DNA from: Thermoflexus hugenholtzii JAD2
GTDB lineage: Bacteria; Chloroflexota; Chloroflexia; Chloroflexales; Roseiflexaceae
NCBI GenBank assembly: GCA_945881915.1
Contig: CAMCVW010000002.1
Location: 1-64,000 of the forward strand
Length of the DNA stretch: 64,000 nt
Direction of reading: 5' to 3'
The translations under genes and the position numbers were made by a program. Shown here one piece after another: positions 28,751-45,049 of this stretch. Numbering within the stretch: position 1 is the stretch's first letter; each line of letters begins with the position of its first letter. Under the pieces are notes generated by a model. That model was given only the letters and a program-made list of their open reading frames with translations, was not told the origin of the DNA and did not search any database.

Positions 28751-30349
28751 TTACAACCCTACGGCTGCGCCATCTTTGCGCGGATCTGATCCTGCGTAGG
28801 AGACGCCATCTTGGACCACAATAATCTGGCCACCGCCAAACCCCCCGACTGCTGCTGGTACAACATCATGACCCAATGCACGTAACTGTTGCTGTACGCT
28901 TTCATTGTGTTCGAGAGAAATGGTCTTTTTGCCTTCATATGGTTCGAGCAATTCATAGCGCGGCGCATCGAGTGCTTCTTGGGGATTCATGTCGTAATCA
29001 ATCATATTGACGAGCATCTGGGTGTGCCCCTGAGGCTGCATAAATCCACCCATCACACCAAAGCTTGCCCATAGTTCTTCGTTTTTGGTGACCATGCATG
29101 GAATGATTGTGTGATAGGGACGCTTCCCTGGCTCGAGCGCATTGGGATGTCCTTCCTCAAGGACAAAACACGCACCTCGATTTTGCATACAAATCCCGGT
29201 ATCCCCAGCGACAACGCCGGAGCCAAAGCCGTAATAGAGACTATTGATGAATGAAACTGCGTTTCCCCACTGATCCACAGCAGTGATATACACGGTGTCA
29301 TTCGAAATAGGAAGTTCCCCTGCAGTGACCGCTCCAACCGACTGCATATCGACTAATCGCCGTCGCGGAGCGATGTATGCCTCAGACAACAGGCCTTCTA
29401 CGGGCACTTTTTTGAATACCGGATCGGCAATGTAACGCGCCGCGTCGGCAAATGCAAGTCGCATCGTTTCGATTTGCAGATGCAATGATTCAGCAGACTG
29501 CGGGGCATACTGCCGCAGGTCGAAGCCTTCCAACAGCCGCAATGCGATTAATGCAGTGAGTCCCTGTCCATTCGGGGGGCATTCATAGACGTCGAACCCT
29601 CGGTATGATGCAGTTGCAGGGGCTATCCATTCTGATTCGTGTGCTGCCATATCCGCACTGCTGAGGAAGGCTCCGTCGCGCGCAAGTGCTTTGATAATCC
29701 GGCCTGCGAGTGCACCCCGGTAGAACGTTTCGGCACCCCCAGCAACGATTTCTTCAAACGTCTTTGCAAGCGCAGGTTGACGAAAAATTTGGCCGAGTTG
29801 TGGCGCTCTGCCATTCGGTAAGTAGGTGCTGGTCGCATCGGCGTGTAGTCGTAACTTCGCTTCTGCAGTGGCCCAGCCACGGGCAATGATCTCGCTGACG
29901 GCAAACCCGTCGCGCGCATAACGGATTGCAGGCGCGAGAATTTTGTCGAAACTCAGGTTGCCGTGTGCATGAATCAACGACTCCCAAGCAGCGACTGCTC
30001 CGGGCACCGTAATTGGGAGCACACCATTGAGCGGGATTGTTGATAATCCCCGTTCAGCAAAAACACCACGATGCAACGTCTGCGGAGCACGACCACTGCC
30101 GTTGAGCGCACGGACTTTTTTCGTTTTGGCGTCATACACCAATGCAAATGCATCACCGCCTATACCAGTACTCATTGGTTCAACGACATTGAGCACGGCA
30201 GCGGCGGCGATTACTGCGTCAGCTGCGGTGCCACCTTGTGCAAGCATCTGTAATCCTGCTTGGGCAGCGAGGGGGTGGCTCGTCGCCACAGATCCGCCCG
30301 TGCTGACGATCATTGACCGACGAGATGGATAGGCGCTCATGCTCTTCAT
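28751..30349 (-). CDS. ggt: Gamma-glutamyltranspeptidase family protein
   Basis: A 532-residue Ntn hydrolase that would transfer or hydrolyse gamma-glutamyl groups, for example of glutathione. SHPLAAQAGLQMLAQGGTAADA and the following GIGGDAF open the family; the self-cleavage site is the threonine of NDTVYITAVDQWGN at about residue 360, followed by YYGFGSGVV. No signal peptide is evident, so like many bacterial homologues of this branch it may stay in the cytoplasm. ATG 30349 overlaps the stop of the upstream thioredoxin-like gene (ATGA), showing translational coupling; ATG 30340 is an alternative. The pairing with a thiol-redox gene fits thiol metabolism. Confidence 0.92.
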   Translation of the reverse strand: MKSMSAYPSRRSMIVSTGGSVATSHPLAAQAGLQMLAQGGTAADAVIAAAAVLNVVEPMSTGIGGDAFALVYDAKTKKVRALNGSGRAPQTLHRGVFAERGLSTIPLNGVLPITVPGAVAAWESLIHAHGNLSFDKILAPAIRYARDGFAVSEIIARGWATAEAKLRLHADATSTYLPNGRAPQLGQIFRQPALAKTFEEIVAGGAETFYRGALAGRIIKALARDGAFLSSADMAAHESEWIAPATASYRGFDVYECPPNGQGLTALIALRLLEGFDLRQYAPQSAESLHLQIETMRLAFADAARYIADPVFKKVPVEGLLSEAYIAPRRRLVDMQSVGAVTAGELPISNDTVYITAVDQWGNAVSFINSLYYGFGSGVVAGDTGICMQNRGACFVLEEGHPNALEPGKRPYHTIIPCMVTKNEELWASFGVMGGFMQPQGHTQMLVNMIDYDMNPQEALDAPRYELLEPYEGKKTISLEHNESVQQQLRALGHDVVPAAVGGFGGGQIIVVQDGVSYAGSDPRKDGAAVGL

Positions 30350-30831
30350 TTGTTTGGTACCTCTACTCCCAATCCCGCCACGAGGGTATCGAATTGCGGC
30401 CGATTGACCGTACCCATTGAACGCCATACTTCGGTGCCATTTGCGTCGAAGAGGACGTATGTCGGAGTCATTTTCACACCGATTTGCGCTGCAATGGCCC
30501 GATTTTCCGCATCCCGGGCATCGAGATGGACAACACGCAGTTTGTTTTGATAGTCTTGTTCAATCCCATTCACGATGGGCTTCGAGAGCACGCAGCCCAT
30601 TCAGTATTCGGAATAGTATTCGACGAGGACTGGTTTACCGCCTTTGAGAATAGTCGGAATGTCCGCTGTCGCAGTTCGTCTTGCGTAGATTCCCATTGCT
30701 GCAAAGCCGAGGAGGACCGCTGCAATGGTCACAATTTGGATCGTATTCCAACCGGATTGATTCGCCCACCATACCGTTCCACCGAGGAAGAGTATCAGCA
30801 TCAGAATGAGTGAGTTTTGGTTGACAAACAT
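30346..30831 (-). CDS. Membrane-anchored thioredoxin-like protein with in-frame TGA at the active site
   Basis: Read through one TGA (30603-30601), this is a 161-residue thioredoxin-like protein. Two membrane helices (about 7-23 and 31-50) precede a thioredoxin fold. VLVEYYSEY, then TGA, then MGCVLSKPIV lines up without gaps to [20 protein letters not shown] of the trxA in this same window, so TGA stands exactly at the first cysteine of C-x-x-C (residue 77, partner Cys80). The cis-proline (MTPTY, Pro123) is intact and the frame runs on to an ATGA overlap with ggt. A UxxC selenoprotein is therefore likely; a recent TGC-to-TGA mutation or a sequencing error are the alternatives. A selenocysteine-type hairpin is noted separately. 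AAAGGAA precedes the start. Confidence 0.75.
30565..30579 (-). promoter_or_regulatory. Candidate bacterial SECIS hairpin
   Basis: Downstream of the TGA on the minus strand, CCCAT (30579-30575) pairs with ATGGG (30569-30565) around the loop CGTGA. The loop starts 26 bases after the TGA and has G as its second base, as in the published bacterial SECIS model (upper stem of at least 4 bp, loop 16-37 bases after UGA, G in the first two loop bases). Short stems like this arise often by chance. A competing 7-bp stem starts directly after the TGA. Confidence 0.4.
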
Positions 30832-30946
30832 GGCTTTCCTTTCGACTCTGTACGAATTATACAGGAGGAAGCCGGCGGTTAATCGAAGCTTGCAAAAGAT
30901 GCGGGTGTGAATTGAGTATAATGATTGTGAATACAGAGAGGTTCAC

Positions 30947-32341
30947 ATGTTCGACGACAAACCACAGCATGAGTGCGGTATCTTTGGGATTTTCGCGCCG
31001 GACGAAGACGTCGCTCGAATGACGTTTTTCGGTTTGTATGCACTGCAACATCGTGGTCAAGAAAGCGCTGGCATCGCAGTTGCAGACGGGACGTCCATCA
31101 ACCTCCACAAAGAAATGGGTTTAGTCGCCCAAGTATTCACCGAAGAAAAACTCAAACCATTGACCGGGCATGTAGCCATAGGCCACACCCGGTATTCCAC
31201 CACTGGTTCTTCTAAACTGCTCAATGCGCAACCATTTGTCGTTCAGAGTGCCCTCGGCCCACTGGCTATTGGACACAATGGCAACCTTACCAACGGCACC
31301 GAATTGCGGAATGAACTCTTCGAACGCGGTTTTGGACTGAGTTCCACGAGTGACAGCGAAGTCATCGTTCAAATGCTCGCAGGTGGCCCGGGTTCGAATT
31401 GGGACGAACGTATCAATGCACTGATGACCCGTGCCGAAGGCGCGTATTGTCTGACCGTATTGACCCGCAATACCCTCTATGCGCTGCGTGATCCTTGGGG
31501 CATCCACCCACTATGCCTCGGTAAAATCGGGAGTGGCTGGGTCGTCGCTTCTGAAAGTTGTGCCCTGGCGACTATCGGCGCCGAATACATCCGAGAACTC
31601 GATCCCGGCGAAGTCATCGCGATCGATGCTCATGGGCCTCGTACCATCGGTCGTCACCAAGCCAGCAAACGTGCATTATGTCTCTTTGAGTATATTTATT
31701 TTGCACGACCTGATTCGTTGCTCGATGGTCGCACATTACATGCTGCACGTGTGACTGCCGGGCAAATCCTTGCAGAAGAATCACCCGTCGATGCAGATGT
31801 CATTATCCCAGTCCCCGACAGCGGGATTCCTGCAGCAATTGGTTTTGCACAGAAATCTGGTATTCCATACAGTGAGGGACTGATTAAAAATCGCTACATT
31901 GGGCGCACATTTATTCAACCCGACGATCGTCTGCGCAAAGTTGGCATTCAGCTCAAATTTAACACGCTGAGTGATAACTTGGCTGGTAAGCGCGTAGTGA
32001 TTATCGACGACAGTATTGTGCGAGGGAACACGTCTGGCCCCATGGTCAAAATGCTCCGTGCAGCGGGTGCACGGGAAGTTCATATGCGCGTCTCTTCGCC
32101 ACCTATCAAACACCCGTGTTTCCTCGGTGTTGACATGGCGACATACCCCGAACTCATCGCCCACCGCATGGACGTAGAACAGATTCGGGCACACCTCGGC
32201 CTCGATAGCCTCGCCTACCTCTCGTTACCCGGATTGCAACGAGCCACACAATCGCAGGGATTCTGCAATGGCTGCTTCACGGGGCAATACCCTGTCGATG
32301 TGACGTTTGTCGACAAACATGCATTTGAATCAAACAAGTAG
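30947..32341 (+). CDS. purF: Amidophosphoribosyltransferase
   Basis: A 464-residue enzyme for the first committed step of purine synthesis: glutamine and PRPP to phosphoribosylamine. The N-terminal nucleophile is Cys10 (HECGIFGI), exposed after removal of a nine-residue propeptide, as in Bacillus-type PurF; the glutaminase region continues with LQHRGQESAGIA and GHTRYSTTG. The phosphoribosyltransferase PRPP loop is VVIIDDSIVRGNTS near residue 355. C-terminal cysteines (GFCNGCFTG) fit a [4Fe-4S] site of the Bacillus type. AGAGAGG precedes the ATG and TATAAT at 30917-30922 may be the -10 box. No other purine genes are nearby. Confidence 0.97.
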   Translation: MFDDKPQHECGIFGIFAPDEDVARMTFFGLYALQHRGQESAGIAVADGTSINLHKEMGLVAQVFTEEKLKPLTGHVAIGHTRYSTTGSSKLLNAQPFVVQSALGPLAIGHNGNLTNGTELRNELFERGFGLSSTSDSEVIVQMLAGGPGSNWDERINALMTRAEGAYCLTVLTRNTLYALRDPWGIHPLCLGKIGSGWVVASESCALATIGAEYIRELDPGEVIAIDAHGPRTIGRHQASKRALCLFEYIYFARPDSLLDGRTLHAARVTAGQILAEESPVDADVIIPVPDSGIPAAIGFAQKSGIPYSEGLIKNRYIGRTFIQPDDRLRKVGIQLKFNTLSDNLAGKRVVIIDDSIVRGNTSGPMVKMLRAAGAREVHMRVSSPPIKHPCFLGVDMATYPELIAHRMDVEQIRAHLGLDSLAYLSLPGLQRATQSQGFCNGCFTGQYPVDVTFVDKHAFESNK

Positions 32342-44719: not shown

Positions 44720-45049
44720 TTAGGAGTTTGCAATCGTATCGAAGTCTCGTTTCAATTCAGATTTTGGCTTGACTCCGACAATCCGACTGACTTCCTTCCC
44801 GCCTTTGAAGAAAATCATCGTGGGGATAGCCTGCACCCCGAATTGCGCAGCATACTTCGAAGATTCGTCTGTGTTTACTTTGGCAACGATGACTTTGCCG
44901 GCGTATTCCCCAGCGAGTTCTTCCAAAATGGGAGCTACAGCGCGGCATGGGCCACACCATGGAGCCCAAAAGTCAACCAAAACCGGGGTGTCGGATTTGA
45001 GGACGTCTGCTTCGAATGAGCTGTCTGAAACGTTGAGTGGCTTTGTCAT
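44720..45049 (-). CDS. trxA: Thioredoxin
   Basis: A 109-residue cytoplasmic thioredoxin: FWAPWCGPCRAVAP with the C-G-P-C dithiol near residues 33-36 and the cis-proline in QAIPTMIFF near residue 76. It reduces protein disulfides with electrons from thioredoxin reductase. AAGG precedes ATG 45049; an upstream start would add 26 unrelated residues. The CsoR-family gene begins 11 bases after its stop, so the two are one operon, and a CsoR-type palindrome lies just upstream. Confidence 0.96.
   Translation of the reverse strand: MTKPLNVSDSSFEADVLKSDTPVLVDFWAPWCGPCRAVAPILEELAGEYAGKVIVAKVNTDESSKYAAQFGVQAIPTMIFFKGGKEVSRIVGVKPKSELKRDFDTIANS

Follow-up and report, generated by a model that had tools for sequence, protein, structure and literature searches.

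Thioredoxins with a UxxC active site form a verified selenoprotein family that is suited to high substrate concentrations (PMC13188914). WP_010956703.1, a member of Pfam family PF00085, is an example listed as experimentally verified (PMC13188914), and an earlier note on the locus described here treated these proteins as an established selenoprotein class. The Prx-like thiol:disulfide oxidoreductase selenoproteins (PF00578) carry UxxC or UxxU motifs (PMC13188914). According to the rules set out for bacterial SECIS elements, the hairpin has a loop of 3-9 nt on a stem of 4-16 bp and lies 16-37 nt from the UGA; a G occupies one of the first two loop positions, often with G or U next to it, and the minimum free energy is -7.5 kcal/mol or lower (PMC13188914). 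For Chloroflexota, a survey published in 2006 counted three selenoproteins (PMC1794560).

The window, i.e., the whole stretch of 64,000 nucleotides that was analysed, stems from a Roseiflexaceae MAG (3.09 Mb, 98.6% complete) whose GTDB genus, UBA965, was judged by its relatives. Its reverse strand carries a gene that, on the evidence of sequence comparison and a structural model, almost certainly encodes a membrane-anchored thioredoxin-like selenoprotein, with a SECIS hairpin directing selenocysteine (Sec) to position 77 of a U-x-x-C redox centre. The pertinent features are the following.

30346-30831, reverse strand: whole gene of the putative selenoprotein, a membrane-anchored thioredoxin with Sec77, 161 residues (frame, Pfam, conservation, model)
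30601-30603, reverse strand: in-frame TGA, predicted to be read as selenocysteine, U77 of U-M-G-C
30565-30579, reverse strand: candidate bacterial SECIS hairpin CCCATCGTGAATGGG (arms CCCAT and ATGGG, loop CGTGA), encoding P-I-V-N-G, 21 nt past the TGA (pattern, pairing)
30664-30831, reverse strand: N-terminal portion, predicted to form two membrane helices (helices 5-26 and 30-56 of the model; hydrophobic stretches in the translation)
30349-30651, reverse strand: thioredoxin domain, residues 61-161 (Pfam, alignment, model)
30835-30842, reverse strand: probable ribosome-binding site (AAAGGAAA) 5' of the start ATG, read from the sequence
28751-30349, reverse strand: ggt, a gamma-glutamyltransferase-like gene named by sequence resemblance, whose start overlaps the selenoprotein stop (ATGA)
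30947-32341, forward strand: divergent purF-like gene (464 aa), a conserved upstream neighbour named by inspection

The frame at 30346-30831 is open apart from the TGA at 30601-30603, and the two frames into which it falls (30601-30831 and 30346-30600) are in the same phase with this codon as their sole separator, just as the earlier note had stated; the ATGA overlap with ggt that it described is likewise present. An ordinary table-11 reading splits the gene in two. The start ATG of the full frame is preceded by the ribosome site GAAAGGAAAGCC (GAAAGGAAAGCC-ATG). In the genus contigs examined, the gene keeps both neighbours, the divergent purF-like gene on its upstream side and ggt on its downstream side; the tie between the selenoprotein gene and ggt is positional only.

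When the TGA is translated as U, the 161-residue product matches the Pfam Thioredoxin model PF00085 (E 5.7e-11; 42.8 bits, above the gathering score of 23.5), and an AlphaFold model, built from 12 sequences with Cys substituted for Sec and of moderate confidence (mean pLDDT 79), places two long N-terminal helices ahead of a thioredoxin domain. The joined product thus corresponds to the membrane-anchored thioredoxin proposed earlier. The closest solved structures to the model in the PDB are thioredoxins. Aligned to solved thioredoxins, U77 takes the place of the first active-site Cys, C80 that of the second and P123 that of the cis-Pro, so that the assignment of the TGA to the first Cys of C-x-x-C, with Cys80 and cis-Pro123 intact, holds beyond the original alignment by eye; in the model, helix 78-97 directly follows U77 and P123 precedes strand 124-128. 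The predicted fold is that of a thioredoxin: the redox pair sits where helix 2 begins, and the cis-Pro lies opposite. The nearest NCBIfam model, the thioredoxin equivalog TIGR01068, scores 54.4 bits and its cut-off of 96.8 is not reached. By homology, the 161-residue protein would be a thiol-disulfide oxidoreductase that uses Sec as its nucleophile, and arginines past helix 2 suggest a domain facing the cytoplasm.

TGA is found at the same codon in all nine genus members that possess the gene, namely the genome studied here and eight further ones recovered in a class-level search (53-75% identity). Beyond the genus, homologues, which the earlier note had proposed to align, carry TGA at this position, or TGC/TGT in some lineages. 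Where computable, pairwise dN/dS is about 0.04-0.17 both before and after the TGA, and the changes downstream of it fall mostly at third codon positions; purifying selection acts on both flanks. The gene was not found in the genus genomes G073 (72% complete) and G077 (93% complete), both of which contain selA, and it may therefore be dispensable.

As alternatives, the earlier note had named a base-calling error and a nonsense mutation of recent date; either would have struck a gene for a Cys thioredoxin. TGA is indeed one base away from the Cys codons TGC and TGT, and Cys homologues exist, but the same TGA recurs in eight other genus members and in dozens of genomes besides, the downstream half is under in-frame purifying selection, and the hairpin and the TGA co-occur. 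The occurrence of the TGA in nine genomes that were assembled separately excludes a base-calling error even without recourse to the reads, and the probability that we assign to mutation or error is negligible.

A further explanation invokes two proteins: a membrane peptide of 76 residues and, made by termination-reinitiation, a thioredoxin half of 84 residues. In this genus an ATG sits immediately 3' of the TGA (TGA ATG); the second half thus begins with a start codon and such a mechanism is conceivable. The earlier note saw no ribosome site for independent translation of this half, a point that needs qualifying in view of the ATG; outside the genus, the ATG is not generally kept, and the TGA is mostly followed by codons for I, L, A, S, G or P. 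Moreover, neither half is a complete thioredoxin (the second lacks strand 68-73 and the first active-site residue), some homologues are single frames with Cys at this codon, and a covarying hairpin is left unexplained, which makes the two-protein explanation very improbable. We regard all three alternatives, nonsense mutation, sequencing error and a pair of separate genes, as effectively ruled out and return to the single gene with Sec77.

The SECIS hairpin, which is conserved in step with the TGA, was absent from the earlier note. Among 23 aligned TGA homologues of the class it is ungapped, mostly of the form CCC[AG]TCGT[GT][AG]A[TC]GGG, and lies exactly 21 nt past the TGA, counted from the first where a homologue has two. 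All hairpin cells pair in this set; in eight sequences an A-U pair is exchanged for G-C, the change on the 3' side being at a silent third codon position. Of 40 residues invariant in the genus, just eight are also encoded by a codon that never varies; five of the eight (K, P, I, V, G) lie over or beside the hairpin. The single exact match to the pattern in the genome is the site at 30565-30579; in a genome-wide search tolerating mismatches, none of the near matches examined proved to be another TGA gene, and the two-mismatch matches are mostly chance. Rfam holds no family for the hairpin.

In a phylum-wide set of 65 TGA genes, 310 of 325 base-pair cells are paired and all five pairs are present in 51 genes, with alternative Watson-Crick types, i.e., compensatory changes, at pairs 3, 4 and 5 and a G-U in the loop of every gene. 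When synonymous codons were redrawn in 2000 trials, the mean was 210 and the maximum 233, and permutation of synonymous codons within columns gave at most 294, none of 2000 trials reaching the observed value; these statistics come from related sequences and are not strict probabilities. The 15 homologues with TGC or TGT, a set that includes a few distant, weak homologues (e.g., G443 and G168b), have 31 of 75 cells paired, no more than expected from their codons, and the hairpin has also been lost from the close Cys relatives G219, G240, G387 and G205. In a named set, 70 of 75 usable TGA genes are fully paired; many of these loci had already been counted, and genes with the motif P-[IV]-V-[DN]-G were favoured by the scan. 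The hairpin is conserved and covarying in the Sec forms and lost in the Cys forms.

With a 5-nt loop (CGUGA), a G at its second position, a 5-bp stem and a distance of 26 nt, the element at 30565-30579 agrees with the published rules on geometry and loop sequence. Its energy is borderline, at -6.9 kcal/mol for the local segment (limit -7.5) and -11.5 kcal/mol for 60 nt with the hairpin forced; the unconstrained fold, at -14.8 kcal/mol, is a different hairpin. Folding predictions for the free RNA of this species, of G080 and of G075 favour another hairpin, which starts at the first codon after the UGA. Only if the initial 12 nt are covered, as they would be by the ribosome, is the SECIS predicted to form, then with a probability near 1. 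The alternative hairpin (AUGGGCU/AGCCCAU; 30575-30600, reverse strand) would mask the 5' arm of the SECIS in free mRNA and may be due to chance; G081 shares the UMGC motif yet does not favour it. These paired segments right after the UGA were initially taken for the SECIS itself; as they are unconserved, the downstream hairpin took their place.

The genome also encodes the machinery for Sec insertion, in line with the earlier expectation: selA (E 1.8e-149 with profile TIGR00474), selB (E 3.5e-101), selC, i.e., a tRNA-Sec with the anticodon TCA, and selD (E 6.9e-104). PF12390, used as a selA probe, had no match in this genome, and TIGR00474 was employed instead; it should be noted that selA is too common across the class for its presence to be a strong test. 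The selD gene, located outside the window (G000:C2:84360-85286; L018), is itself interrupted by a TGA in the motif SAG-U-AAKMGPG, which we take to be the usual Sec site of SelD, and it is likely a second selenoprotein gene of the same genome. TGA read-through is known in general, and the codon might be decoded as another amino acid, such as Trp or Cys by a near-cognate tRNA, with no Sec machinery involved; given that it aligns with the Cys codons of relatives at the position of the nucleophile, and that a SECIS-like hairpin as well as tRNA-Sec, SelA, SelB and SelD are encoded, we regard such decoding as exceedingly improbable. Machinery, homologues and hairpin together support the interpretation as a UxxC selenoprotein advanced in the earlier note.

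For the selenoprotein, the following course of events can be envisioned. SelB would deliver Sec-tRNA(Sec) to the ribosome at the UGA (30601-30603), guided by the SECIS 21 nt downstream, and the ribosome would insert Sec77 to yield the 161-residue protein, the thioredoxin domain of which would be anchored in the membrane by the two N-terminal helices, with the orientation proposed above. Sec77 would serve as the attacking nucleophile and Cys80 as the resolving thiol, so that the U-x-x-C centre could reduce or exchange disulfides or related oxidised groups.

Homologues of the protein span the Chloroflexota and reach the Acidobacteriota; their motifs are UxxC and, in some lineages, UxxS. In one branch with UGAS or UAAS (L029, L030, L031, L098, L100), Sec is kept and the resolving Cys is replaced by Ser. 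Among the matches listed, a plasmid search produced ordinary thioredoxins only. Records titled Singulisphaera (L158) and Rubrobacter (L201) carry Chloroflexota-type genes of the family; their titles look wrong, and the stretch in L158 seems to be that of genus member G078. In a tree of 55 membrane-anchored members, the Cys forms are scattered, with at least nine label changes, five of which are forced by well-supported branches, and G205, G219, G240 and G387 sit within well-supported Sec clades. This unrooted tree, from which the direction of change is read, suggests repeated replacement of Sec by Cys with loss of the hairpin. L091, L108, L110 and L119 are Cys versions nested in Sec clades with a degraded SECIS and appear to be Sec-to-Cys conversions.

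A sister group of probable lipoproteins possesses two TGAs (UxxU) and one hairpin. It comprises L036, L050, L051, L052, L053, L034, L140 and L141 and, in the named set, L212, L222-L226, L228 and L229; several of these loci have a lipoprotein-like N-terminus, and the single SECIS-like hairpin lies 21 and 12 nt past the two TGAs. PF00085 is matched by the three sisters tested, whose hits do not include PF00578.

How does this family compare with known systems? No paper on the membrane-anchored branch was found in the open literature, the scope of our search; the branch may be covered by a survey of groundwater MAGs that used deep learning and is cited in PMC13188914. The NCBIfam families of HUIPC thioredoxins (NF047660), SaoT (NF040730) and TsoB (NF045694) resemble the protein in their thioredoxin-like fold and UxxC-type motifs; the 161-residue product gives a mere 14.9 bits with the TsoB model (cut-off 805) and no match with NF047660 or NF040730, and no curated NCBIfam model claims the membrane-anchored branch. 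This selenothioredoxin type, whose split gene recurs across the phylum, proves to be widespread and overlooked in Chloroflexota. We consider it rather probable that the membrane-anchored UxxC/UxxS forms and the lipoprotein UxxU forms make up an uncatalogued, phylum-wide family with a common SECIS module that lies within the codons for P-[IV]-V-[DN]-G, that in the UxxU forms a single SECIS, its loop at distances of 26 and 17 nt, serves both UGAs, and that Sec forms have repeatedly given rise to Cys forms that lost the hairpin. With its many Sec and Cys versions of a single protein, some with a SECIS and some without, the family amounts to a natural experiment on keeping or dropping selenium, and its UxxU forms could show whether two UGA codons can share one SECIS.

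With the Prx-like selenoproteins of PF00578, the lipoprotein sisters share the two-Sec UxxU motif; unlike that group, those tested match PF00085. The TrxA-like thioredoxin encoded in the same window (44762-45007 region) has the thioredoxin fold and about 33% identity over the domain, but it carries WCGPC, no membrane helices and no TGA. The gene belongs to a known kind, the UxxC thioredoxin selenoproteins of PF00085, with which it has in common the Pfam family, the replacement of the first active-site Cys by Sec, the UxxC motif and a SECIS just downstream. By description, its branch is set apart from them by two N-terminal membrane helices, a start of the form F-[VI]-N-[QR]-[NY]-S, a motif that varies between UxxC and UxxS, and the peptide P-[IVAT]-V-[DN]-G encoded by its SECIS.
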